Both the position numbers and the translations under genes were made by a program. A stretch of DNA of 24,262 nucleotides from a virus: the IMG/VR virus record IMGVR_UViG_3300035099_000678, positions 1 through 24,262 of that record. The stretch is one strand, 5' to 3'. The number at the start of each line of letters is the position of its first letter. The stretch's first letter is position 1. Positions 8,045 through 23,629 of this stretch are shown piece after piece. Below the pieces are notes generated by a model. That model worked only from the letters and a program-made list of their open reading frames with translations. It did no database searches and was not told the DNA's origin.

Positions 8045-8051
8045 TCTCCGA
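8036..8051 (+). repeat. Left copy of direct repeat flanking the cargo insert
   Basis: Sixteen bases, TGGAGCTGATCTCCGA, span the last two codons and stop of the tail tube gene. They recur with one mismatch at 10893-10908. The pair brackets the AT-richer cargo genes and is likely a recombination or duplication scar. Confidence 0.6.
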
Positions 8052-8218
8052 TGGGGGTGCAGTCCAATGCAAAGACGAATTTAAAGCCTGCGCCGCTGAT
8101 GAAAAAATCCTGAGCCCCCTCAAGCACCTGGTTCCAATCCGTTTAACACAGATGCTCGGCAAACCACGGCGACCGTTCCCGGCAGAATAAAGCGCGCCTG
8201 TTCTTTTGCATTTTCTTA

Positions 8219-8247
8219 TTGACTCGTCTCATTGCAGGTGCTAGAAG
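8219..8247 (+). promoter_or_regulatory. Candidate sigma70-type promoter of the cargo genes
   Basis: A -35-like TTGACT (8219-8224) is separated by exactly 17 bases from a -10-like TAGAAG (8242-8247). Transcription would start near 8254, about 30 bases ahead of the ATG at 8285. The match is five of six and four of six to consensus, so it is only plausible. An own promoter would let the cargo be expressed while phage genes are silent. The rest of the gap (8052-8218) shows no convincing gene. Confidence 0.4.
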
Positions 8248-8284
8248 GTCTCTAAGACTATCACCTGTGCGGCAAGAGGCCCCA

Positions 8285-8800
8285 ATGCGAACGGGATTAA
8301 AGTCCAAGAGGTTGGAACTGGCCACCAATGTGGCAATCATCCTCACTTGCGTTCTTTTCAGCATTTACTTGGGATTCCGCATCTACAATGAGAGACGCCC
8401 GGTAGCTGCTGCGGTTGGTTATCGGGTGGGGGAGACGATCGCTGAAACTCCCGAATTGACCTTTACTGCTTCTTCGATGACGGCACTGCTCGTTACCAAG
8501 AGTAGTTGCCATTTTTGTACAGAGAACATGCCTTTCTATCGTCGCCTGATTGAGGTTGCGAGAGGGTCCAGTGTCAGGTTGATTGCACTTTCGACAGAAG
8601 AACCAGCTGCCAATAGAGCGTATCTTCTTTCCAACAAAGTCCAAGTGGAAGCTGTTCTTTCAAGTACACAGAATGGGCTCAGACAATTGCCAACGCCGAC
8701 ATTAATCCTGGTAAACCGGGAAGGACGTATCTTGAAAATCTGGGTGGGAATGGTGAACGAGGCCGGACAGAATGAGGTTTTGAAGGCTATCAGTGAATGA
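8285..8800 (+). CDS. Membrane-anchored thioredoxin-like protein (CHFC)
   Basis: A 171-residue protein with a basic N-terminus, one membrane segment (about residues 12-32) and an extracytoplasmic thioredoxin-like domain. The redox motif is C75-H-F-C78 in LLVTKSSCHFCTENMPFY, at the start of the first helix as in TlpA/ResA-type proteins. A cis-Pro loop LPTPTLILV (P138) and the NREGRILKIWVG strands follow. It probably reduces or rearranges disulfides outside the cytoplasmic membrane. The ATG at 8285, behind an AAGAGG, is preferred to a TTG at 8219, which gives a poor N-terminus and coincides with the promoter-like -35. Its last codons overlap an ATG (8797) of the next ORF. The adjacent cysteine-rich secreted peptide is the obvious candidate substrate; that link is inference. 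Confidence 0.8.
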   Translation: MRTGLKSKRLELATNVAIILTCVLFSIYLGFRIYNERRPVAAAVGYRVGETIAETPELTFTASSMTALLVTKSSCHFCTENMPFYRRLIEVARGSSVRLIALSTEEPAANRAYLLSNKVQVEAVLSSTQNGLRQLPTPTLILVNREGRILKIWVGMVNEAGQNEVLKAISE

Positions 8801-8829
8801 AGTCAAATAACATCCAAGGAGGTAAACGG

Positions 8830-9081
8830 ATGAAAAGGCGAATGCTCATGCTTCTGTTGCTCCTGGCTATGTTTGTGTCTGTTATTTATGCTCTTCCACC
8901 TCCTATGGCGGGGAGCGCATCGGACCCGTATTGTTGGGATGTCTGCTCCGACTACTGCTTTGAGGTTGGCATGTGGCCCCCCAACATTGCTTGGGCGTGC
9001 GAGGATGGATCTTGCTGGTGTGTTTGCTATGGCGTCCCGCCGCCACCCCCGCCATCAGGTTGTTACCCGCCAGCAAAGTAA
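8830..9081 (+). CDS. Secreted cysteine-rich mini-protein, defensin-like spacing
   Basis: An 83-residue ORF with a perfect AAGGAGG (8816-8822) seven bases before the ATG at 8830; a start at 8797 lacks this. Residues 1-21 form a clear signal peptide (KRR then a Leu-rich core ending VIYA), leaving about 62 residues. Eight cysteines at 35, 39, 43, 57, 62, 64, 66 and 78 give C-x3-C-x3-C-x13-C-x4-C-x-C-x-C-x11-C. The C-x3-C followed by C-x-C (here CWC) is the pattern of cysteine-stabilised alpha-beta (CS-alpha-beta) defensins and scorpion toxins. A poly-Pro stretch (70-75) precedes the last Cys. Function is unknown: a secreted toxin, bacteriocin or matrix peptide are options. The even cysteine count and the thioredoxin-like neighbour suggest disulfide bonding. 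Confidence 0.72.
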   Translation: MKRRMLMLLLLLAMFVSVIYALPPPMAGSASDPYCWDVCSDYCFEVGMWPPNIAWACEDGSCWCVCYGVPPPPPPSGCYPPAK

Positions 9082-9099
9082 CAACTCTTCGGCCCGAAA

Positions 9100-9152
9100 G
9101 CGGCACCGATATTTGGCTGATGAAACGTGAACCGGCTGAAGCTCGGTGCCGC
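9100..9152 (+). other. Inverted repeat between peptide and VWFA genes
   Basis: A perfect 10-bp inverted repeat (GCGGCACCGA at 9100-9109, TCGGTGCCGC at 9143-9152) with a 33-base loop sits in the gap between the cysteine-rich peptide and the VWFA gene. There is no T-run, so it is not a standard terminator. It could uncouple peptide expression from the downstream gene by RNA processing or partial termination. Confidence 0.4.
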
Positions 9153-9209
9153 AGGGTGCATTCCCTCTTGCTAGTCAAGGCCTCAGGGTACCGGCCGATT
9201 GGAGGTAGA

Positions 9210-10727
9210 GTGCTGTTTCCGCGAATCCGGTTCCAGAACGTTACTGCACCCAAAAAGGCTGCTCTCATGTTGCTTTGGGCTGCGACTCTGCTCGCTCAAC
9301 AGCCGGATCCCGAAGAAATACGTATTTTACGACTCCCCTATGATCCAGGTTCACGACACACATTTAGAGTCGAAACTAGTCTTGTTGAAGCCGGCGTATT
9401 AGTTCGAAATTTTCGAGGTGATATTGTCACTGGACTGAATAAAGACGATTTCGAGATTTATGATGCCGGGAAACGGAAGAATGTCGAATATTTTGCAACA
9501 GTGCCGGGGGCCCCATCAGAAGACGATGGCCTTCCCCGCCGTTTCGTGGCCTTCGTTTTTGACGATACGAGCAGACGGTTCGTCGGCGATTTGATTTATG
9601 CAAAGGAATCGGCAAAGCGGTTTGTATCCAAAGGCCTTGCTCCCGGCGATGTTGTATCGGTATTCACGTTCTCAGGGCGGCAGGTCTTGCCCTTTACTCG
9701 GGATCCGCAGAGTATTATTGCTGCGCTTGACCGCGTCACGCTGCGCTCGTTTGCACACATAGTGCCAGCACAAATCATTGCCGACGTAGTCTCCTATATG
9801 TCACGGATGCCAGGTCAGCGCATCATGGTGCTGTGTTCTTCGATGTTTTACGCCCAGCGTTTTGACCAGGAATCAATTATCAGTCGCGCAATCCGCGGCG
9901 GGGTGATCATAAACGGCATCGCCGCCCAGGGAGTTTCAGCAATGTCAATCCGCGGCGACCCGTCATTAGAGGCCATGCCGTATGTGGCTGAGAGCACGGG
10001 GGGCGTCTATTTCACTCGGAACAACGACCTTGTTTTGGGCTTTAAGACGACTGCTGCACCTCCAGAACTTGGATATATTTTGGGTTTCTATCCGGACGAT
10101 GTACGCGATGGCCATTATCATCGGCTGACGGTCAAAGTGAGATCAACGGCGGCTCGGTCAGTACAGGCTCGTCCAGGTTATTTTGCCCCAAAAAAAGAAA
10201 CCGAGCGCCCGATCGATCGGGCATTTGCTTCTGCTGAAGACCTCAACCAAATACCGGGCGTTCGCATTGTTACGTTGCCGGGCACGGACAGTATCCAAGA
10301 CGAAATTGCCAGCATCAAGGTCGTAGCGCACTTCGATGCTAAGGACGCCCTCTTCCGGAGACAATACGACCGGCACGTGCAGAATTTTAGGTTTGTCGCC
10401 GCTCTTCTGGACCAGCAAGGTTCTCCCGTGACTGGCGCTGAGGGGATAATCGAGTTGGCACTGAAAGAGGATACATACACTTCTCTAAAGGATGGGTTGA
10501 ATGTCATCCTTGAACTGCAGGCCCCGATAGGGAGCTACTACCTCAGGGCGGTTATTCAGGAGGGCCTCCAAGGAAAGATGACGGCAGTCAGATTGCCCAT
10601 ACGTTTGCCGTCCAATGACGGTTTGGATCTCTTATCCGTCAGCACAGGAGTTTCTCAGCAGATCCAGGAGTTTGCCGCGGATCGACGGCGATTCCGTTGC
10701 TTTGCAGCCGTGGTCTCAAGCCGTTGA
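9210..10727 (+). CDS. Secreted VWFA-domain protein, acidobacterial type
   Basis: A 505-residue protein with a probable signal peptide (basic residues to K16, hydrophobic core 17-29, ending LLAQ). Residues about 53-96 form the N-terminal module seen in this family (VRNFRGDIVTGLNKDDFEIY, then KRKNVEYF). The VWA fold runs from about 110 to 300 and ends with LGFYPDD and ARPGYFAP (320-327). The last 175 residues are beta-rich and unassigned. These features match the VWFA-related family that is strongly expanded in Acidobacteria. The metal site looks degenerate: FDDTS (117-121) replaces DxSxS, so metal-dependent ligand binding may be lost. The GTG at 9210 behind GGAGGT (9201-9206) is chosen; longer in-frame extensions upstream lack signal-peptide character. 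Binding partner is unknown. Confidence 0.82.
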   Translation: MLFPRIRFQNVTAPKKAALMLLWAATLLAQQPDPEEIRILRLPYDPGSRHTFRVETSLVEAGVLVRNFRGDIVTGLNKDDFEIYDAGKRKNVEYFATVPGAPSEDDGLPRRFVAFVFDDTSRRFVGDLIYAKESAKRFVSKGLAPGDVVSVFTFSGRQVLPFTRDPQSIIAALDRVTLRSFAHIVPAQIIADVVSYMSRMPGQRIMVLCSSMFYAQRFDQESIISRAIRGGVIINGIAAQGVSAMSIRGDPSLEAMPYVAESTGGVYFTRNNDLVLGFKTTAAPPELGYILGFYPDDVRDGHYHRLTVKVRSTAARSVQARPGYFAPKKETERPIDRAFASAEDLNQIPGVRIVTLPGTDSIQDEIASIKVVAHFDAKDALFRRQYDRHVQNFRFVAALLDQQGSPVTGAEGIIELALKEDTYTSLKDGLNVILELQAPIGSYYLRAVIQEGLQGKMTAVRLPIRLPSNDGLDLLSVSTGVSQQIQEFAADRRRFRCFAAVVSSR

Positions 10728-10957
10728 TAAGGCAGTACCTGCTCTAAGTGTCACCCAGCTCTGCACTTCGACTTGGCTTTTGATCGGGTTGTGCCGCAAA
10801 CAGTTCGTTTTCATATGCCCCGATAATTAGTAAATCATATTGATGCATCGGAAGTCTGCGTATCGCAGTCACGGCTGCGTTCTCCCGTGACCTGGAGCTG
10901 ATTTCCGACAGATCCAGTTGGTCTCAAATCAATCACAAGAAAATCTGGAGTCAGATC
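10728..10957 (+). other. Cargo-phage junction with small hairpins
   Basis: This 230-base gap has no supported gene. Two small hairpins lie side by side near the right end: CTGCG/CGCAG (10856-10868) and GTCACGG/CCGTGAC (10868-10874 with 10885-10891). They are followed at once by the right copy of the 16-bp repeat. A GGAG at 10947-10950 is the ribosome binding site of the tail chaperone gene. No convincing terminator T-run follows the VWFA gene. Confidence 0.5.
10893..10908 (+). repeat. Right copy of direct repeat; remnant tail-tube 3' end
   Basis: TGGAGCTGATTTCCGA matches 8036-8051 at 15 of 16 positions. Read in the frame that ends at the TGA 10899-10901, the preceding codons give LRSPVTWS-stop, closely resembling LRVTGPIAWS-stop of the intact tail tube gene. 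It therefore looks like the original or a foreign tail-tube C-terminus left at the insertion junction. Confidence 0.55.
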
Positions 10958-12102: not shown

Positions 12103-15100
12103 ATGCCGGTTATCGGACGCCTCTTTTATGAGATCGGTGGCGACACCGACCGGCTCCAGGCTGATCTGCGCAAAGCCGTGGATATGGCCAAGGACGCCGG
12201 ACTCGACATCAAACGCGCCGGTCAATCCTTCCTCGCGTCGTTCAACGAGGCCCTCAATCCAACTGGCCTCTTGACCGAGAAGCTCCGGCTGCTCGAGGCC
12301 GCGGGCAAGTCGAACAGTGAGATCATGGCGGTCATGGGCAACCAGATCAAGGCTGCCGCGGAAACTGCCAAGGCCAATAGCCAGGCGATCGATCCCCTGG
12401 TGCAGAAGTACGCCGATCTCGCGAATGCTGCAAAGGGCGGCGGTTTCTCGATCGAAAGTCTGGGCAAGACGCTCACCGACTTTGCCCGGAATCCCATGTC
12501 GGCTGCAAAGGAAGGAATCGGCAGCTTCGCCGAAAAGCTCGGACCGGCTGCAATCGGCCTGGCTGGGATCGCCTCCGCTGCAATCGCGGCCGGGGCGGCG
12601 ATCTTCAAGCTTGCCGAAAGCACTGCAAACGAAGCCGAGCAGATCACGAACCTGTCGCTCCGCACCGGGATCGGCGTCGAACGGGTCCAGAGCCTGCAGA
12701 AGGCGGCGGAGCTGATGGGCGTGAGCGGCGAAACGGTCATATCGGCGGTCTCGAAGATCAACCTGGAACTCGGCAAGTTTGGAACCGGCGGCGAGTTCAC
12801 GAAGGGAATCACGGCCCTCGGCATCTCTCTCGAGGACGCCTCGGGCAAGGCGAAGCCGGCAGTGGATCTCCTGTCCGAGTTGCGGACCAAGCTCCTGGAA
12901 ATCGAGGACCCATCCGAGCGCGCCCAGGTCGCGACGGCGGTGCTCGGCAGGCGCAACCAGGAACTCGTCCCGTTGCTCCTGAACGCAAAGGACAACCTCT
13001 TTGACCTAGCGAAGCAGCTCGAGGACACCGGCGCGGTCATGGACAAAGTCGCCGTCGACCAGGCGATGAAGCTTGACGAGAAACTCGATATCCTCTCCGT
13101 GCGGTTCGCCAAGGTCAAGACGATCGCAAAGGAGGCGGCCGTAGAGACCGCGCTCGCCGTAAGCGACATCTTCACGGGCGATTTCTGGAAGCTCCTGGCC
13201 TCGAACCTTGCCAAGGGCGCGGGCATGCAGGCCGCGTCGCTTGCCTCCCTGCAGATGAGGATCAAGGAGGCAGCCGACGCCGCAATCGAGGCCTCGAAGA
13301 AGCACGAAGAAGCGGGAAAGAAAGCCGCCGACGCCGCCGGACTCGCTCGGATGAAAGAGGAGGAACTTTACAACGAGCGCCTGAAGCTCCTCTCCCAGGG
13401 CAAGGAAAACGTGGATCTCCTGCTCAAGCTCCAGGAGGCGCAGGAAAAGCTCAATACGGCGGTCGAGAAGGGCCTGAGCCACAAGGAGAAAGAGAAGGCG
13501 CTCAGCGCCGTGCTATCGATCCGGGACCAGATCAAGGCGCGCGAGGACGAGGCGCGCGCCTATGAAAAGGCACTGGATGCCGTGGAACGGATGCAACGGG
13601 AGCGCTACGAGGCCGCGGAGAAGCTGAGGCAGAAGGAAACCGAGGAGGAAAAGAAACGGCTCGAAGACCAGCACGCTTTCTCCGCGAAGCTGCAGATGGA
13701 AATCAACAAAGCGGCTGCCGGCCTCGAGAAGATCAAGCCGGAGAATCCCCTCAAGGATCTCCTCCCGACCGAGAAGGACATCCGCGACATGGAGCGCCGC
13801 TCGGCCGAGTTCAACCGTATTGCCGGCGGCTGGGGCAAGGAAGCCGTTTCCATCGGAGAGGAGATGCGCAAGCAGATCAGCACCGTGGTGAACGATTTCG
13901 GCAGGCAGGTGGCCGGCGCGATCGTGCACTGGAAAGGGCTCGGCAATGCGGTGAAGGAGTTCTTCTCGAGCCTCGCGGAATCGACGCTGCGGATTGTGAT
14001 CGAGAGGCTCTTCAACCCGCTGCAGAAGCTCCTGGGCGATGCCATGGACTCCCTGTCCGAGCGCTTCTTCGGCGGCGGGAAGAAAACGACGGCCAGTCCC
14101 GCGCCAGCCCCTGTTTCCGGTTCCTGGGGCAACCTCCTCGGGACGGTCGGAAGCGGTCTGCCCGACTGGCTCAAGGCGGCGGCGACGCCGGCGGAAGAAG
14201 GACCGAGCATCTCCGAAATTCTCACCGCTGGGAATCCGCTCCTGCAGGTTTACAGGCCTGTCGAATTCTCCGCGCCGCGGACTTCGCCCGGTTTCGTCGG
14301 CCCGACGCTCGACATGGTGAAGGGGGGAGCGCCGGCCGGCGGGATCTTCGGCGTGGGCGGGACCGCGGGCTCCATGATCCAGGGCGGACTCATGGCCGGA
14401 GGCACGGCGGCGTTCCTGGACTCGTTCAGCCAGAAAGGCGTCCGGGGCTGGGCGGAAGCCATCGGCGGCGGCGCGGCAATCGGCGCGGCGATAGGGTCCG
14501 TGGTGCCGGTCATCGGCACGGCGATCGGCGCTGCAATCGGCGCTGCCGCCGGTGCTCTGGCGAAAGGCATCCAGTCACTGGTCACGGCCATCAAGGGGAA
14601 GAACGCCTATCAGGCCGGATCGATGGAGCTGGGGCGGGACTTTGGCGGCATCACGATGTCCCCGGACGATTTCAAAAAATGGCTCGGTGAGATGGGCATC
14701 TCGGAAAGCCAGACTTATCCCATCCGAAAGGATATCGAATCGAGTTCCAAATTCCTGGCCGAGGTGGCCGGCCCCCTAGCCGCGGCACAGGGAAAAACGC
14801 AGGAGTTCCTGAAGTCGCTCGAATTGGTGAAGACGGCCTCGGGGACGTTCGATTTCCGCAAGCACTACCAACTTGGCGAGCTGACAGGTGACTGGTCGGC
14901 CCTCGACGAAGCCTTCAAGGCCGCGTTCAAAGACTCGCAGGCATTAAATCAGAACGTCCCGGATTGGCAATCGAAGCTTCTGATGCTTGGGGACGCGACC
15001 AGGAAGACGGCTGCCGATTTCCAGAACCTGTATAAGCAGTTTGATGAAACCAAGACCGTTTCGGATGAGTTCTCGGATTTCCTGAAAGAGAATGCCGAAG

Positions 15101-16281
15101 TGCTCGATGAGGCGGCGAAATCATCCTCGGCTTTCGCCGACGAGCTCGAGGTCGCCCGGAAAGCCCTGGAGCTGAAACCCCTGCTTGACGGCCTCAAGAG
15201 CCTGCGGGATGGGATCTCCGGGATGATTCCCGCGGTTGAGACGATGTACGACCGATTTCTCAAGACAGGCGAGATTACGGAGGAGTTCGCCGCCAAGATC
15301 ACCGAACTCGGCGGGGACATTTCAAAGTTCACAGAGGTGTCGGGACTCGTCAAGCTCAACAGCTATTTCGCGGAGATGGTCCAGCACTTCCGGGACACGG
15401 GAGAGATCCTTCCCGACCTGCGCGACCTCTTCCAGCAGTTCGGTGGCGATCTTTCGGCATTGGACAAGGCCGCGGATCTGTCGGGCCTCAAGTCTTCGCT
15501 CGGCTTCATCGAGCAGCTGTCAGACGAACTCACGAAGTTCCTGCCCGAACAGACCGCGATTCAGAAGCTGATGGCCGGAAACGTGGATCAGTCGGTCATT
15601 GATGCACTCACCGGCGCGGGCATCGCTCCCGAGAGCCTGACGAAGATCACCGGCCTTTTGAAGATGGAAACCGGCTGGGACGATGCGATCAAGAAGTTCC
15701 AGGACTCGGGCAAGCTGCTACAGGGCGGCCTCCTCGAACAAGCGCTGTCGCAATATGGCGGAAGCGCCGGGCAGACCGCAGTCAGCCGATACGGAGAGGG
15801 CTTCAATACCGTTACCGACCAGCTGCTCGCCGCGACCAAGGCCGCAATGGATGCCGCTTTTCGCAATGAAAGAACCGGCGTCCTCGACATCCTGAAGCAG
15901 GCTGCCGGAGACATCACGACACAGGTCGGCAACATCACGAAGCCGATCGAGGACCAATTCACTATCGTGAGCACGAACATCCAGACGGCGTTTCAGACGG
16001 CGGCCGCGGCGGCGATCGCCGAACTCGATAAGATCCTCGCGAAGATCGAGGAGATCAAGGACGCGACGAAGGACATAGTACCCGAACCTGTGACGCCTGG
16101 CGCGGGCGACACTCAGCCCGTCGAACCGGAGCCGGTTGAGCCTGTCCCCACGGCCGAAGCCTGGCAGGGGGCGTATATCGATCTGCGCGGCGCCACGATC
16201 TTCGGGTACGACGAGTTCGCCAGGCGCGTCGCCGAGGCGCAGGCGCTGAACGCCCGGCGTTCCGGTCTCGCGCCGGCGTGA
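12103..16281 (+). CDS. Tail tape measure protein
   Basis: This 1392-residue protein sets tail length and is ejected into the cell envelope during infection. At the rule of thumb of about 0.15 nm per residue the tail would be near 200 nm. Visible architecture: an Ala-rich helical N-terminus, a first hydrophobic segment (about 147-168), long charged coiled coil (about 400-540), a Gly/Ala-rich second hydrophobic region (about 787-825) able to span a membrane, then helical repeats with a 44-residue period (TGEI at 1055-1058 and 1099-1102, GGD at 1070-1072 and 1114-1116). It ends with a Pro/Glu-rich stretch from about 1327. No peptidase or transglycosylase motif was seen. It starts immediately after the gp10-like stop. 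Confidence 0.93.
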   Translation: MPVIGRLFYEIGGDTDRLQADLRKAVDMAKDAGLDIKRAGQSFLASFNEALNPTGLLTEKLRLLEAAGKSNSEIMAVMGNQIKAAAETAKANSQAIDPLVQKYADLANAAKGGGFSIESLGKTLTDFARNPMSAAKEGIGSFAEKLGPAAIGLAGIASAAIAAGAAIFKLAESTANEAEQITNLSLRTGIGVERVQSLQKAAELMGVSGETVISAVSKINLELGKFGTGGEFTKGITALGISLEDASGKAKPAVDLLSELRTKLLEIEDPSERAQVATAVLGRRNQELVPLLLNAKDNLFDLAKQLEDTGAVMDKVAVDQAMKLDEKLDILSVRFAKVKTIAKEAAVETALAVSDIFTGDFWKLLASNLAKGAGMQAASLASLQMRIKEAADAAIEASKKHEEAGKKAADAAGLARMKEEELYNERLKLLSQGKENVDLLLKLQEAQEKLNTAVEKGLSHKEKEKALSAVLSIRDQIKAREDEARAYEKALDAVERMQRERYEAAEKLRQKETEEEKKRLEDQHAFSAKLQMEINKAAAGLEKIKPENPLKDLLPTEKDIRDMERRSAEFNRIAGGWGKEAVSIGEEMRKQISTVVNDFGRQVAGAIVHWKGLGNAVKEFFSSLAESTLRIVIERLFNPLQKLLGDAMDSLSERFFGGGKKTTASPAPAPVSGSWGNLLGTVGSGLPDWLKAAATPAEEGPSISEILTAGNPLLQVYRPVEFSAPRTSPGFVGPTLDMVKGGAPAGGIFGVGGTAGSMIQGGLMAGGTAAFLDSFSQKGVRGWAEAIGGGAAIGAAIGSVVPVIGTAIGAAIGAAAGALAKGIQSLVTAIKGKNAYQAGSMELGRDFGGITMSPDDFKKWLGEMGISESQTYPIRKDIESSSKFLAEVAGPLAAAQGKTQEFLKSLELVKTASGTFDFRKHYQLGELTGDWSALDEAFKAAFKDSQALNQNVPDWQSKLLMLGDATRKTAADFQNLYKQFDETKTVSDEFSDFLKENAEVLDEAAKSSSAFADELEVARKALELKPLLDGLKSLRDGISGMIPAVETMYDRFLKTGEITEEFAAKITELGGDISKFTEVSGLVKLNSYFAEMVQHFRDTGEILPDLRDLFQQFGGDLSALDKAADLSGLKSSLGFIEQLSDELTKFLPEQTAIQKLMAGNVDQSVIDALTGAGIAPESLTKITGLLKMETGWDDAIKKFQDSGKLLQGGLLEQALSQYGGSAGQTAVSRYGEGFNTVTDQLLAATKAAMDAAFRNERTGVLDILKQAAGDITTQVGNITKPIEDQFTIVSTNIQTAFQTAAAAAIAELDKILAKIEEIKDATKDIVPEPVTPGAGDTQPVEPEPVEPVPTAEAWQGAYIDLRGATIFGYDEFARRVAEAQALNARRSGLAPA

Positions 16282-16412: not shown

Positions 16413-19346
16413 ATGATCACCGCAACCTACCGCTACTACGTCGACTGGAACGGGGATGGGGATTTCTCCGATGCGAACGAGAATATCTCCACGTTCGCAT
16501 TCGAGGCGACCTGGGAGTACGGGCGGGACTATGCCTCGCAGCTGAGCGGCAGGAGCAAGGCCGGCAGCTGCCGGATCAGCCTCGACAACTCCGACAGCCG
16601 GTTCTCGCCGTTCAACGATTCCAGCCCTCTGTACGGCCAGATGCTCCCCGGCCGCCGCGTGCGCGTCACGATGCAGGTCGGCGGCGGCGAAGAAGCCACG
16701 ATGTGGCAGGGATATCTCGAATCCGTCACGCCGAATGCGGGCGCGGTTGTGGGGATATCGACCGCGGAACTCCTGGCCTACGGCGCCCTCGCCCACAGGT
16801 CGCTGCAAAGCCAGGTATCGGCGCCGATGCACACCGACATCAAGACCGGCGATGCCATATCCGAAGTGCTCGACCAGGCGGAGTTTGCCGCGGCCGACCG
16901 TCTGATCGATCCCGGACAGGGGACGATGTCGCGATGGTGGGACAAGGGGACCGCGACCCAGGCGCTTCGCGACCTCGAGGAAACGGAAGCCGGATTCCTT
17001 CGGGAGGCAAAGGACGGGAAACTCGCATTCGAAGACCGCGCCCACCGGCTTTCGGCCCCGCACACCGTAGCGCAGGCAATCTATGGCGGCGGCAGCCTGA
17101 TGCTATGGGACCCGCGGCAGGGCGATTCCGCCAAAGGCATCTTCAATTACATCGAGGCCGCGGTCAGGACGTTCGACGTGTCCGAGGAGATGGTCCTCTG
17201 GACGCTGTCGGGCAATCCTCCCGCGATCGCGCCGGGCGCGACACTTTCGATTAAGGGCCAGTTTCCGACGCCGACGGGCCCGAGCGGATACATCGCCGTT
17301 TCCGAATGGACCACGACCGATTACCAGGCCAACAGCCAGGCCGATGGCGGCGGGGACGAGCTCACCGAGTTTATCGACGCGGTTGCAACCAAAAGCGCGA
17401 GCGAGATTCTGCTCGAGTTCACGAATAATGGCGCCGAGACGGCCTATCTGACGCTTTGCCGCTGCCACGGAATCGCCATTGTGGAAAGCGACTCGGCCAA
17501 AGTCTGGGCCGAGGACGCGGAAAGCAAGGAGCAGTTCGGGTATCTCCCCTATACGAATGTCGGCAAGTTCCTGACGAACATCCAGGAGGCGCAGGACCGC
17601 TGCGACCATTTCCTCGCGATCTACAAGGATCCGGTACCGATCGTCTCGTTCGACCTGAAGGCGAACTACGACGCCGCGCATCTCGCGGAAGCCCAGAGCC
17701 GCGATGTGAGCGACAGAATCACAATTCGCGCCGGCGCTCCCTACGGCCTTTTCATCGATGAGGACTTCTTTGTCGAATGGATCCGCCACACGGTCGGCAG
17801 GGACAAACGCCATGTCGTGACGCTGCTCTGCTCCTCGGTCGTCTCGCACCATTGGCCGGCGAGCGGCACGCCGTACGAGCCCAGGGTAATTCCGCCGATC
17901 ACCGGCGGCGGATCGCCGCATGTGCCCGACGACCTGTGGACAAACGCAATCTCGAACGGACTCGGTCTCGACATGGGCTGTGCCGCGGACAAATGGAATG
18001 TGGACATAGACGGCGCCGAGTTTCGGGCGCAGCTCTTCGGAGTCGGTTTCTCGGACAAATCGGTCGATCTCCGGACACCAGCCGAGGGCGGAACGCTCGA
18101 GCACAACGGCACGGACCAATGGGTCGTATCGGGCCTGAAGGCCAACATGTATGGCGCCCGGTTCTTCATCAAAGCCGCGCAGCAGGGGCGGCTGTATTTT
18201 GTCTTCCGGCTTCACAATACCAAGGGCTGGAGCGTCTGGAGCGACGGCAATGACACACCCGAGGTCGTCACCGACTTCATCGACACCGAAGACCAGGCGC
18301 TTGCCGACACCGGTCCACCCGCAGACTGGGCGGTCGAGGTCATCAAGGGAATCGCCGACGGCACCTGCCGCGTGCGCGCGTCCAGGCCGAAAACGAACAG
18401 CCACAAGATCCTGTTCGCGTTCTTCCAGATCAAGGACTCGACAACGGGGCAGTGGCGGGACATCAACTCCGATTCCGGCGTTGCGGGATCATCCGATGTC
18501 CTTTACGACGGCAGCGCCATCAGCCATTCGCTCGACCCGATCACAGGCGAGCTGACGATCGACGAGGGCGGCCCGGCCGATTTCGGCGCCGGCCTGGCCG
18601 GTGGGCTGCTCCTGATGGATGTCCGCGCCGGGCAGTTCGACGAGAAATATTGCGTCTGGAACGGGATCGGCTCCTCCCAGATCAGCGGCAATAAGATCAC
18701 GGATCGTTTCGGCATCAGGCTCGCCGCCGATCCGGACGAGGACGGCAAGTACCACGACGTGCGCATCATGATCGTGAAGCCGCCGTGGGAGTGGACCGCC
18801 GAAGGATACCAGGGCGCCCAGACCGGCCTTGGCATGTACATGGGCGAGTACTGGCGAAACGGCGGCGACAAGGCAACCCAGACCTTCGAGTCGATCGATA
18901 TTCCGTACGATTCCACAGTCGATTTCGAGGACCTGCAGGGCCGGGTGTGGTTTGCGAACGCATACTCATTCTCGGATGACGACACTGTCTCGCCGTGCCC
19001 GACCGATCCGCCGCCGGGAGGAAACGACCCGGGCGTCATCATCATCAAGACCGAGACGCCCATCGTGATCGACTGCAACCTGGGGAGCATCTTCTACCTG
19101 CTCCTGACCGCGGACGCGATCCTCGATCCGCTGAAGAACGCAAAACACTGCAAGCCCGTCATCCTCGTGGTGCAGCAGGACGAAACGGGCGGCCACAAGC
19201 TCGTGCTTGATGAAAAGTACAACACGGGCTGGGACATCGACGATGTCGCCCTGTCCGGTGAAAGCGAAAGCCGCGATTACTTCGGTTTCATGTACAACGC
19301 CGACTATGACGTGATCGACGTGGTCGCCTTCGTGAGGGGGTACTGA
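16413..19346 (+). CDS. Tail hub/tip protein with fibre-like C-terminus
   Basis: A 977-residue protein placed directly after the tape measure, where siphoviruses encode the distal tail and hub proteins. The N-terminus contains YVDWNGDGDFSDANE (residues 9-23), an acidic loop resembling a calcium-binding turn. It is followed by DSRFSPFNDSSPLYGQMLPG and RRVRVTMQ, a pattern I know from phage minor tail/hub proteins. A helical linker with ATQALRDLEETEAGFLREAKDGKLAFEDRAHR then leads to beta-rich hub-like sequence to about 500. The middle (500-860) is beta-rich and unassigned. Residues from about 872 to the end (QQDETGGHKLVLDE, ESRDYFGFMYN, DVVAFVRGY) resemble C-terminal domains of tail fibres. The start choice is moderately secure, as the ribosome binding site is weak. 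Confidence 0.75.
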   Translation: MITATYRYYVDWNGDGDFSDANENISTFAFEATWEYGRDYASQLSGRSKAGSCRISLDNSDSRFSPFNDSSPLYGQMLPGRRVRVTMQVGGGEEATMWQGYLESVTPNAGAVVGISTAELLAYGALAHRSLQSQVSAPMHTDIKTGDAISEVLDQAEFAAADRLIDPGQGTMSRWWDKGTATQALRDLEETEAGFLREAKDGKLAFEDRAHRLSAPHTVAQAIYGGGSLMLWDPRQGDSAKGIFNYIEAAVRTFDVSEEMVLWTLSGNPPAIAPGATLSIKGQFPTPTGPSGYIAVSEWTTTDYQANSQADGGGDELTEFIDAVATKSASEILLEFTNNGAETAYLTLCRCHGIAIVESDSAKVWAEDAESKEQFGYLPYTNVGKFLTNIQEAQDRCDHFLAIYKDPVPIVSFDLKANYDAAHLAEAQSRDVSDRITIRAGAPYGLFIDEDFFVEWIRHTVGRDKRHVVTLLCSSVVSHHWPASGTPYEPRVIPPITGGGSPHVPDDLWTNAISNGLGLDMGCAADKWNVDIDGAEFRAQLFGVGFSDKSVDLRTPAEGGTLEHNGTDQWVVSGLKANMYGARFFIKAAQQGRLYFVFRLHNTKGWSVWSDGNDTPEVVTDFIDTEDQALADTGPPADWAVEVIKGIADGTCRVRASRPKTNSHKILFAFFQIKDSTTGQWRDINSDSGVAGSSDVLYDGSAISHSLDPITGELTIDEGGPADFGAGLAGGLLLMDVRAGQFDEKYCVWNGIGSSQISGNKITDRFGIRLAADPDEDGKYHDVRIMIVKPPWEWTAEGYQGAQTGLGMYMGEYWRNGGDKATQTFESIDIPYDSTVDFEDLQGRVWFANAYSFSDDDTVSPCPTDPPPGGNDPGVIIIKTETPIVIDCNLGSIFYLLLTADAILDPLKNAKHCKPVILVVQQDETGGHKLVLDEKYNTGWDIDDVALSGESESRDYFGFMYNADYDVIDVVAFVRGY

Positions 19347-20153
19347 GTGGCAGTCCCGAATTTCCTGACCACCGTGTTCCGATTCGTCGAGATCCTGACC
19401 TCGGACACGCAGGACATCATCAATGGCCTCTACAGCGAGCTCGTGACAAACGGCGGCTGGACCTGCGCGGCCGGCGGCCTCGGGCAGTCGCCCACGACAT
19501 TCAAGTCTCCGGACAGGGCTGATGGTCTCTTCTTCGCGATCCAGTGCTCGCGGGTCAGCGCGTCGAGAATCTCCTACGTGGTCAAAGATCACATGGGGCT
19601 GCTCGTCAACAACGACACCGAAACTCGGCAAGGGATAGCGGGCACATCCTACGTCAGGCTCTACACGAGCCCCGCGCAGGTGATTGTGGATTCGGGAGGT
19701 GCATCAGCCGGAACGCCGGAATGTTGGGGCTGCGGAATCATGGACAGGACCCCGGAGCCGATCGACAAACCTCGGCCCTGCTACTGGGCTTCGCGCGGCC
19801 CGCGCACGCCGGCCGACGCGCTCACGTACAATGTCTGGAACAACACATGGACGCTCAAGGTCGGCGGCTCCTCGTATGTGTCGGGCAGCTACGACGTCAT
19901 CAACGAGCGGGCGCCGTCAGTCTCGCAGTACCAGGATAAGTTCACGTGCGCGGGCACGATGTTCTTCGCGCCGCTCGAGTTCATCGATGGCGGCTGGCTG
20001 CTCGGCAGAGCGCACGGGATCCTGATGGCCGAGTGGAGCCTGCCCGACCAAGGCGTGTTCGACGTTCCGATCGATCCCGAGACGCTGGGCACGTTCAAGA
20101 TCCTGGGCTGGAATATCAGCAACGCGGCGAAGCTCTGCGCGAGGATTGCATAA
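19347..20153 (+). CDS. Tip-region tandem paralogue 1 (type A)
   Basis: A 268-residue protein with a GTG start directly after the hub TGA. It shares an N-terminal module with the next three genes: M-[AG]-[VI]-P, [FY]-R-[FY], then D-x-Q-x-I-I. Type A sequence then follows: LVTNGGWTCAAGGLGQSPTTFKSP, ADGLFF, and a distal ECWGCGIMDRTPEPI with YWASRGPR. Its closest relative in the window is the third copy, not its immediate neighbour. The position after the hub suggests a virion tip or receptor-interaction role, but no known fold or enzyme motif is recognised. Cysteines at several sites are shared with the third copy. Confidence 0.7.
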   Translation: MAVPNFLTTVFRFVEILTSDTQDIINGLYSELVTNGGWTCAAGGLGQSPTTFKSPDRADGLFFAIQCSRVSASRISYVVKDHMGLLVNNDTETRQGIAGTSYVRLYTSPAQVIVDSGGASAGTPECWGCGIMDRTPEPIDKPRPCYWASRGPRTPADALTYNVWNNTWTLKVGGSSYVSGSYDVINERAPSVSQYQDKFTCAGTMFFAPLEFIDGGWLLGRAHGILMAEWSLPDQGVFDVPIDPETLGTFKILGWNISNAAKLCARIA

Positions 20154-20993
20154 ATGGCGGTTCCGCATTTCCTCAGCACGGGATTCAGGTTCAAGGAGCG
20201 GGTCAGCGTCAGCGATGTCCAGGCAATCATCGACGATTTCGATGGCGAAGTACTTGCGGTCGACAACCCCGGTCTCGGATGGAGTGCGTGGTCGTTCCTC
20301 GGCGGCGGCGGCTACCGGAGCCCGATCGATCAATGGGGCAGGCGCTTCGACGTCTACCTGTCGCGGGTCACGCAGCAGAAGCTGCAAATGGAGGTTCGCG
20401 ACCAGAGCGGCATCTCGCTATGCACGCGCCGGATCAACTGCCCTTCCGCGAACACCTGGACGGCGCGGATCTTCACCGGGCAGTACCATGCGGTGATCGA
20501 TGTCATGATGGGATCGGCCGTGCCTGAAGCGCTTTATGGTGGCATCCTCGACCTGAGCCCGGACACGCAGGACGCTCACCAGCATTATGTTTACGGCGGC
20601 GGTTTCCGGAACATAAGCGACACGAACGATTACCTTAACGATGTCTTCACTGTTTTCATGCTCGATGATGCGACCCCGATGTCAAAGTCGCGCGGGACGA
20701 TCTTCTGCGGAGCCGGCTCGGGTTCGGCTGTGGGACGCAAGACTCTGAGCGGCGCGCGGGTGTACCGGCCGAGGGAACTCTGGTGCCAGCAGACCGGGGC
20801 CGGCGGCACCTATGGATACATGCACTACGCCGGAAGGTGCTTCCAGCAGCTGCTCTGCCCGGCCAATCTCGCCAAAGGGGCGAGGATCTATGTGCCGATC
20901 GACACCGGCGTCATCGGCGAGTTCATCGTGGCCGGCGGCGTCGCCGGCAACAATGCCGATACTGCCTGGGCTCTCTGCGTGAGGTGCGCGTAA
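20154..20993 (+). CDS. Tip-region tandem paralogue 2 (type B)
   Basis: A 279-residue protein whose ATG follows the previous TAA with no gap. After the shared N-terminal module (FRFKERVSVSDVQAIIDDF) it carries type B sequence: RSPIDQWGRRFDVYLSR, EVRDQSGISLCTRRIN, NTWTARIFTGQYH, YVYGGGFRN, RPRELW and a C-terminal VPIDTGVIGEFIVAGG. The fourth copy shows the same landmarks in the same order. It is likely a structural tip-region protein that docks through the common N-terminus; the specific function is unknown. Confidence 0.7.
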   Translation: MAVPHFLSTGFRFKERVSVSDVQAIIDDFDGEVLAVDNPGLGWSAWSFLGGGGYRSPIDQWGRRFDVYLSRVTQQKLQMEVRDQSGISLCTRRINCPSANTWTARIFTGQYHAVIDVMMGSAVPEALYGGILDLSPDTQDAHQHYVYGGGFRNISDTNDYLNDVFTVFMLDDATPMSKSRGTIFCGAGSGSAVGRKTLSGARVYRPRELWCQQTGAGGTYGYMHYAGRCFQQLLCPANLAKGARIYVPIDTGVIGEFIVAGGVAGNNADTAWALCVRCA

Positions 20994-20995
20994 GC

Positions 20996-21805
20996 ATGGG
21001 AATACCGGCGCATTGGAACACGTCCTTCAGGTACAAGGAGACGCTTGCCGTTATTGATGTCCAGACCATCATTGACGACCTCTACGCCGAGCTCGTGACG
21101 AACGGTGGTTGGACGTGCACGGCGGGAGGCGTCGGGCAGAGCCCGACGACATTCAAATCTCCCGCGCGGGCGGATGGTTTGTTCTTTACTGTCCAATGCA
21201 CGCGCGTCAGTGCCACGCGCGTTGGCTACGTTGCGCGCGACTGCGCGGGCATGCTGATAAACAACCAGACGTCGAGTACGCAGGACATCGATGCCGCGCC
21301 AGGAACGACTGTCCACTATTTCACGGGTCCGCTCCATCTGTGTGTGAACACCGAGCGGACGACGCCGGAGTGCTTCGCCTGTGGCGCGCTTGACCAGTCA
21401 CCCGAGCCGATCATCGGAGCGCCGCGCGCCTCGTACTGGGCCGGCAATGGCCCGCGCGGGAATACCGGCACCTGGCTCGTTTCGGGCTGGACAACGAACT
21501 GGGCGCTTGCCAAGGATGGGACGGCATATGCCAGCTCGCAGCGTGCGATTGGCCGCGGCTGCCCAACATCGCACCGCCGCTGGCACGCAAACGGGACGAC
21601 CCTCATAGAGCCGTTCGAGATAGGCGATTCGACAAATCCCGAGGTGCTGCTCGGCAGGGTCTTCCAGGCGGCTATCGTTCCGGAGCAGCTGGCCTTCGCC
21701 GCGGAGATCACGGTTCCTCTTGGCGACGGTTCGAGCACTGGCGTTTTCAAGGTCGTCGGGCTGATAACGACGGGCAACGCGCGGGTGGCATTCAGAAAGG
21801 CGTAG
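20996..21805 (+). CDS. Tip-region tandem paralogue 3 (type A)
   Basis: A 269-residue protein starting at the ATG 20996, two bases after the previous stop. A longer in-frame ORF from 20783 lies inside the upstream gene and lacks the MGIP start that the fourth copy shares. It matches copy 1 across its length: LVTNGGWTCTAGGVGQSPTT, FKSPARADGLFFTVQC, ECFACGALDQSPEPI and YWAGNGPRGN. Conservation is also evident at DNA level around 21085-21215 compared with 19435-19565. Divergence is concentrated in the second half, which could reflect selection on an exposed surface. Same unknown tip-region role as copy 1. Confidence 0.7.
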   Translation: MGIPAHWNTSFRYKETLAVIDVQTIIDDLYAELVTNGGWTCTAGGVGQSPTTFKSPARADGLFFTVQCTRVSATRVGYVARDCAGMLINNQTSSTQDIDAAPGTTVHYFTGPLHLCVNTERTTPECFACGALDQSPEPIIGAPRASYWAGNGPRGNTGTWLVSGWTTNWALAKDGTAYASSQRAIGRGCPTSHRRWHANGTTLIEPFEIGDSTNPEVLLGRVFQAAIVPEQLAFAAEITVPLGDGSSTGVFKVVGLITTGNARVAFRKA

Positions 21806-21807
21806 CC

Positions 21808-22611
21808 ATGGGAATCCCGACGTTCCTTAACTCGAGCTACAGGTATTTCAGCCGGGTTGGCGCGAGCGACGTGCAGCAGATCATTGACGACTTCCAGACG
21901 GAAGTCCTGGCCAACATGCCCACCTGGACGAACCCGGGCGCGGGACTTTACAAATCGCCGGTCGATGCCGACGGCAGGTGGATGGATGTCCTCCTGACAA
22001 AGATCTCGGCGAGCAAGCTCGAGATGAGGCTGCGAGATCAGCTCGGGCAGACGATCTGCACCCGCAGGATCAATAACACCTCCGGCGCGGGCAACACGTG
22101 GACGGTTCACACCATGACCGGTCAGTACCACATGAATGTCAGCGTCGATTCGGGCACCGGCTGGGAAGGACTCGGCGCCTTCATCCTCGACCAAACGCCG
22201 GAAGCGCAAGGCTCGAACGCGCGTTACGTGTGCGGCGGCGGCTATCGCAGCAACGCCGATTCCGCCGATGGCTACTGGAGCGCGCTCAGGTGGTTCATGA
22301 TGGACAATAACGCCGCGGCATACGCCGAGCGCGTGACGCAATGGTACGCAGTTTCCGCGGCGTCATCCTCGGCGATGTTCACGCTCAATGGAACGCGGAT
22401 CATCCGCCCGATGGGCCTGTGGACCAAACCGGCGGGAGAGGTTTCGTATTACCGGTTCCACGGCCGCGCCTACCAGCACGTGCTGGTCGAAAGCGGCGTT
22501 GCGACGGGATCGAAGCTGACGATACCGATAGACGTCGGGTTGTCGGGATTGTTCTTCGTGGCGGCGGTGCCTTCCGGAGCATCCACCAAGGTCGCAATCA
22601 GAATAGGTTGA
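21808..22611 (+). CDS. Tip-region tandem paralogue 4 (type B)
   Basis: A 267-residue protein starting two bases after copy 3. The shared N-terminus (MGIPTFLNSSYRYFSRVGAS then DVQQIIDDF) is followed by type B landmarks: YKSPVDADGRWMDVLLTK, RLRDQLGQTICTRRIN, NTWTVHTMTGQYH, YVCGGGYRS, RPMGLW and IPIDVGLSGLFFVAA. It is therefore the partner of copy 2 and completes an A-B-A-B order. No catalytic motif is recognised. Confidence 0.7.
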   Translation: MGIPTFLNSSYRYFSRVGASDVQQIIDDFQTEVLANMPTWTNPGAGLYKSPVDADGRWMDVLLTKISASKLEMRLRDQLGQTICTRRINNTSGAGNTWTVHTMTGQYHMNVSVDSGTGWEGLGAFILDQTPEAQGSNARYVCGGGYRSNADSADGYWSALRWFMMDNNAAAYAERVTQWYAVSAASSSAMFTLNGTRIIRPMGLWTKPAGEVSYYRFHGRAYQHVLVESGVATGSKLTIPIDVGLSGLFFVAAVPSGASTKVAIRIG

Positions 22612-22615
22612 CGGT

Positions 22616-23629
22616 TTGCCGAAGCTGCAATTCAGGAGATGGCTCGGAAGTTTCCTGCCGGCAACGGAGCCCATGGCTTGCTCCCACAAGGTTACGTCTC
22701 CCGCCGCGGCTTCCGTATACGAATGGCTTGGCTTCCATGCTCCTTCTTCGACCTACGAGGTGCAGTCGAGCCAGAAGCTTTCGCAAGCCGAGGACATCTG
22801 GACGGGAAAGATCCGTACCTTCGATGCCGAGACCGAACACTATGGGGCGCTCGCGCCGGCAAACGACTTTCCGGCGCCGCTGCTCTGCGAGGATGTCGTC
22901 ATCGACCTCGGCTTCTGGATGCAGTTCACGTTGGTCGGCTGGACCAACAAGGCGAACTGCGACATGCCGCCGCTCGCGCAGCTTCAGGTTTACGAGGCAG
23001 TCAACATCGGCAACGGATGCGTCACGCCACCCGGCGGATACGTGCTGATGAACATGTCGAGCGGCGAGCTCATTCACTACTTCGGGCGGAACAACAGCCA
23101 GTACGGCGGCACATTCACGGGCATCGTCCGCGGCTGGCTCGGCACCATTCCGTCGGTGTGGGAGGGGCACGACAGGGGCGCGCAGGATCCCGGCCCGCCG
23201 CCCATCCCGCCCGATACAGTGCACGATCCGATCGGCATCTACTGGCCGCCGAAGACCGCGCTTCTCGGCTTCATGGCGACGAGTTCCGCGCATGCGAGCG
23301 TGATCGCGCGGCCGATCCCGTATGCCCCACCGGGATCGCACTGCGGGATCTTCATGCCGATCATCATGCGGTACCTGGCCGACCGTTGGATCACGAAGAC
23401 GGTGACCAAAACCGTTACAAAGCTAATTTCGAAGACGCGAGGCACGCCGCCAGTCGCCGTGCCAGATCCAAGCATCCTCCCTCGTCCGGAGGAGACTCGT
23501 AAAGTAACGCCTGGCGGCGGTGTCGGATTCGGGTCGCCGATCGATTCGACAGCGGACGAGGGCGAGACGCAGCGCGATTACGGCGAGCAGCCGGACCGCA
23601 ACGGCCCCGGCGGATACCTGATGCTGTAA
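22616..23629 (+). CDS. Unassigned tip-region protein
   Basis: A 337-residue ORF that I do not recognise. The TTG at 22616 gives MPKLQFRRWLGSFLPATEP; an in-frame ATG at 22673 (MACSHKVTSPAAAS) would give 318 residues and is about equally plausible, because neither has a strong ribosome binding site. The N-terminal 230 residues look beta-rich. A Pro-rich linker (GPPPIPPD) lies near the middle. A short basic amphipathic repeat, ITKTVTKTVTKLISK, precedes a Pro/Gly-rich, probably disordered C-terminal tail that ends in GGYLML. Placement between the paralogue cluster and the lysis genes suggests a virion tip component. Confidence 0.6.
   Translation: MPKLQFRRWLGSFLPATEPMACSHKVTSPAAASVYEWLGFHAPSSTYEVQSSQKLSQAEDIWTGKIRTFDAETEHYGALAPANDFPAPLLCEDVVIDLGFWMQFTLVGWTNKANCDMPPLAQLQVYEAVNIGNGCVTPPGGYVLMNMSSGELIHYFGRNNSQYGGTFTGIVRGWLGTIPSVWEGHDRGAQDPGPPPIPPDTVHDPIGIYWPPKTALLGFMATSSAHASVIARPIPYAPPGSHCGIFMPIIMRYLADRWITKTVTKTVTKLISKTRGTPPVAVPDPSILPRPEETRKVTPGGGVGFGSPIDSTADEGETQRDYGEQPDRNGPGGYLML

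Follow-up and report, generated by a model that had tools for sequence, protein, structure and literature searches.

How a tailed phage came to carry four similar genes in a row, alternating between two types, and what their products do for the virion are the questions raised by a locus in IMG/VR virus record IMGVR_UViG_3300035099_000678. The window analyzed here is the whole stretch of 24,262 nucleotides (positions 1 to 24,262 of that record). It covers the structural region of a tailed phage's genome, with PHROG matches to terminase, portal, protease, capsid, connector and tape measure proteins. The tape measure gene is followed by a gene for a 977-aa tail protein, the four genes A1, B1, A2 and B2, a gene for a 337-aa protein with a C-terminal part rich in proline and glycine, and then the lysis region (Table 1). 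Gaps within the block of four are 0-2 bases long. We start A2 at the ATG at 20996, which is the one that aligns; the mechanical open reading frame opens earlier, at 20783.

Table 1. Genes of the four-gene block and its surroundings, with coordinates in the window
Feature	Position	Strand	Basis
Tape measure protein, marks the phage tail module	12103..16281	+	Matches to PHROG tape-measure families, best 1.7e-19
977-aa tail protein, directly upstream of A1	16413..19346	+	C-terminal part: weak PHROG matches to tail proteins
A1 (g1), first type-A subunit, 268 aa, GTG start	19347..20153	+	BLASTP homology within the block
B1 (g2), first type-B subunit, 279 aa	20154..20993	+	BLASTP homology within the block
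A2 (g3), second type-A subunit, 269 aa	20996..21805	+	Homology; AlphaFold2 model with VIA match to 8rk3_K
B2 (g4), second type-B subunit, 267 aa	21808..22611	+	Homology; AlphaFold2 model with VIA match to 8rk3_K
337-aa protein downstream of B2, right-hand boundary of the module in close relatives	22616..23629	+	Comparison with relatives

Two types of full-length homologues alternate in the block

The proteins encoded in the order A1-B1-A2-B2 are homologous over their full length. Like pairs share 40.9% identity (A1-A2, BLASTP E 2e-63) and 38.8% identity (B1-B2, E 7e-60), while unlike pairs share 28-31% (E 7e-14 to 1e-27), E-values that rule out chance similarity. This bears out the first-pass annotation of the sequence, which had sorted genes 1 and 3 into type A and genes 2 and 4 into type B. 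Profile-profile comparison likewise finds A and B homologous (HHalign probability 100), and in the DNA a repeat of 170 nt is retained at 74% (19410-19579 versus 21062-21231).

That annotation had also seen a shared N-terminal module, read as a docking end carrying variable distal parts. The similarity among the four genes is real, but it extends well beyond the N terminus. Between A and B, conservation is best at residues 1-60 (32-38%), 121-140 (31%) and 241-269 (31-39%), and lowest at about residues 161-220 (14-20% identity), so that the picture of a conserved end and a variable part is roughly right, with both ends conserved and the variable part internal. One motif, N-N-x-T at residues 89-92 of A2, occurs in every one of the ten A proteins compared, and nine of the ten B proteins have a gap there. 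Net charge, compared between A and B proteins, does not separate the types.

Family libraries offered no name for these proteins. Neither Pfam nor PHROG gave a credible match to the four, or to 12 members scanned with E-values up to 1 allowed; a match to DUF4256 (0.0022), seen in two members only, was rejected. Neither a sequence search of solved structures with the A/B proteins nor a tblastn search of 50,697 phage records with five members as queries produced a match, and scans of bacterial and archaeal genomes for A/B homologues found none. The 977-aa protein gave a single weak partial match against the phage records. Viral-contig scans with individual window proteins were also empty, and relatives emerged only with profiles.

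Related phages carry one or two A-B pairs

Profile scans of IMG/VR recovered eight relatives, all of them uncultured contigs. Three (L004, L005 and L017) have the identical A-B-A-B order, each behind a counterpart of the 977-aa protein. Five more distant contigs, found with wider profiles (L026, L027, L028, L029 and L057), encode exactly two members each, adjacent and with A first. Thus, of nine contigs including the window, four carry A-B-A-B and five a single A-B pair. There are no lone A or B genes and no other gene orders among the nine; the single genes of mixed type that would have spoken against the first-pass reading are absent, A and B being always paired. Searches of the whole single-pair records, which may be fragments, found no further A/B copies elsewhere. 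One of them, L057, keeps the tape measure, the 977-aa protein (53% identity), the 337-aa protein and the lysis gene in the window's order, and the two genes that enclose two A-B pairs in the window enclose a single one here.

The junction with the upstream gene is itself conserved. Seven of the eight relatives, L029 (7866-9053) among them, contain a match to the C-terminal ~105 residues of the 977-aa protein (about 19029-19343) immediately ahead of gene A. In L026 the match persists as a 119-aa open reading frame (8808-9167) while the remainder of the protein is absent. Because the match adjoins gene A even without the rest of the protein, this C-terminal segment may be a docking site for the fibers proposed below.

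The pair appears to have been duplicated as a unit

Phylogenetic analysis places the split between A and B before the doubling. The A|B split received 100/100 support in trees of 12, 16, 24 and 22 proteins, and the rival grouping of g1 with g2 was rejected (p-AU 8e-67). With single-pair relatives in existence, these results uphold the history first proposed from the sequence, an ancient divergence of A and B followed by duplication of the pair as a unit.

The copies also group by position across phages. A1 of the window joins the first genes of its relatives (98/98) and B1 their second genes (97/98); the placement of A2 with the third genes is weaker (83/85), and that of B2 with the fourth genes is weak in the tree and not rejected (p-AU 0.20). 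Clades uniting A1 with A2 (p-AU 0.0004) or B1 with B2 (p-AU 0.004) within the window were rejected, and the doubling is therefore older than the split of the window phage from L004 and L005. A tree built from the C-terminal portion of the 977-aa protein separates the four A-B-A-B phages from L028 and L057 (100/100). We regard a single unit duplication on the branch leading to the A-B-A-B phages as the simplest account of these trees.

Alternatively, the second pair could have been taken up from another phage, which would leave the monophyly of A copies and of B copies in the A-B-A-B phages, relative to single-pair phages, without firm support, as is indeed the case. With L057 included, though, all A copies of the A-B-A-B phages do group (79/66), the matching grouping of B copies is not rejected (p-AU 0.19), and a single internal event requires no donor; we consider uptake unlikely. 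The contig L017 may have a history of its own: its second and fourth genes group together (91/82), whereas the tree of the flanking protein joins it to the window, and it possibly duplicated its pair independently or borrowed the second one.

Predicted structures match the lateral tail fibers of phage JBD30

The AlphaFold2 models of A2 (pLDDT 82, pTM 0.86) and B2 (pLDDT 73, pTM 0.76) point to a known fiber fold. With the A2 model, Foldseek returned only two chains at E < 0.001, both from the baseplate of JBD30 (3.5e-5 and 3.5e-4). VIA-align matched chain 8rk3_K to A2 (Z 17.1 over 238 residues, rmsd 3.7; next entry 4.8) and to B2 (Z 14.4 over 226 residues, rmsd 4.2; next entry 4.5). By chain length and sequence, the matched 8rk3 chains are gp47 and gp48. 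The models thus predict the gp47/gp48 fold for both A and B, with JBD30 as the sole strong structural match. Three entries of BFVD with consecutive numbers (A7KUT2, A7KUT3 and A7KUT4) all match the B2 fold as well, which suggests that proteins of this fold are also tandemly arrayed in another phage.

JBD30 is a Pseudomonas phage whose gp47/gp48 tail-fiber structures were obtained by cryo-EM (PDB 8rk3 and 8rk5; PMC11445458). The two proteins have similar folds and form heterodimers with a charged interface; three heterodimers make up each lateral tail fiber, and three fibers embrace the type IV pilus (PMC11445458). As in the window, two adjacent paralogous genes of the tail module encode subunits of similar fold, and genes of the gp47/gp48 type were adjacent in ten annotated phages that we examined. 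Unlike the window, JBD30 has one pair only, and it lies between the tape measure and a distal tail protein. Typically such a pair comes right behind the tape measure gene, as in nine phages compared; the window's block instead follows the 977-aa tail protein.

The predicted tie between A/B and gp47/gp48 is one of fold rather than of sequence. Both gp47 and gp48 match phrog_687, while 12 A/B members gave no match to it at E up to 1. Profile-profile comparison of A with gp48 was weak (probability 34-72%), other comparisons of A/B with gp47/gp48 gave nothing, and sequence profiles do not distinguish whether A is the counterpart of gp47 or of gp48. Given the missing PHROG match, the weak profile comparison and the different gene position, we do not place A and B in PHROG 687.

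Pairs resembling gp47/gp48 have been recognized elsewhere by structure prediction, as the tail fibers gp67/gp68 of phage Lydia (Mesyanzhinovviridae; PMC11946847) and as GP41/GP42 of a Mu-like Vibrio siphophage (PMC12482185). In the parts of these reports available to us both are single pairs, with no duplicated pair described, unlike the window. A literature search with partial coverage turned up no duplicated pair of this kind, which would be a variant on the single pairs already known.

The four genes diverge fast and stay intact

Between the window and L004/L005, the A1, B1, A2 and B2 proteins are 43-53% identical, compared with 75-90% for the capsid part, the tape measure and the 977-aa protein, or 75-93% when a small protein of the connector region is counted with them. 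Values of dN/dS, rough because dS is close to saturation, are 0.27-0.51 for the four genes versus 0.09-0.17 for these comparison genes. All A/B copies are intact. On these sequence comparisons, fast divergence with intact copies is in keeping with host-recognition proteins exposed to changing pressure, and less so with duplicates in decay. The neighboring 337-aa protein diverges as fast as the fiber genes (41-43% identity to relatives).

Each pair probably forms a heterodimer of a lateral fiber

A and B are two adjacent, similar proteins that always occur together and in one order, like gp47 and gp48, and for this reason we propose that they are the two halves of a lateral fiber subunit. By this analogy, each A-B pair probably forms a JBD30-like heterodimer, and the phage would have two kinds of it. 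An ancestral phage with one A-B pair would have duplicated it as a unit at a time when the window phage and its two nearest relatives had not yet diverged, and purifying selection would have retained both pairs. The heterodimers would stack into lateral tail-fiber arms near the baseplate, and these arms would catch a structure on the host surface before the main receptor is engaged. Type IV pili are a possible receptor, a suggestion we hold tentatively at best. With both pairs presumably in the same virion, the two kinds of heterodimer would occupy different positions in one arm or build two kinds of arm. The heteromeric arrangement that the first-pass annotation had envisaged thus fits the gp47-gp48 heterodimer, while its tip decorations would, by analogy with JBD30, rather be lateral arms than the tip itself.

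A more specific arrangement, which we think possible if on the doubtful side, is a single arm of four paralogous subunits in fixed order, with A1B1 and A2B2 at set positions. Such an arm would give one fiber two binding faces, able to hold two receptors, or two sites on one, simultaneously.

Two other readings do without a virion bearing two kinds of heterodimer. Many phages have several separate receptor-binding proteins, and A and B retain the same predicted fold and similar conserved ends; each gene could thus encode its own homo-oligomeric spike or fiber, the alternation of A and B being a historical relic. We find this improbable, since A and B occur always together and in one order across nine contigs and the JBD30 subunits of this fold act as a heterodimer. 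That the pairs are alternative fibers, one being used per virion or per host, would suit the fast divergence of all four genes if receptors shift, yet it is highly improbable: no long inverted repeat was seen flanking the block, hence no hint of inversion switching, and the genes are spaced as in one transcription unit.

If the heterodimer reading is right, the host-grabbing device seems to have been doubled as a unit in this lineage. This suggests an expansion route for two-protein host-binding devices in which both genes are copied at once, as one would expect of partners that depend on each other. Phages with one pair and phages with two, sharing their flanking genes, provide a natural before-and-after comparison. 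The models would also extend the JBD30 fiber fold to phages without recognizable sequence similarity, whose proteins are unnamed in current family libraries.

Other variable parts of the tail region

The middle module of the 977-aa protein (about residues 500-858; window 17900-19000; L027 577-2808) is another repeated tail part: two single-pair phages (G005 and G007) each have it in three separate large open reading frames of about 740-780 aa. Further upstream, two conserved genes that lie about 0.3 kb apart in L004 are separated by about 2.9 kb in the window (8045-10917). This segment, likely an insertion in the tail region, holds open reading frames of 193, 94 and 584 aa, of which those of 193 and 584 aa have no PHROG match.
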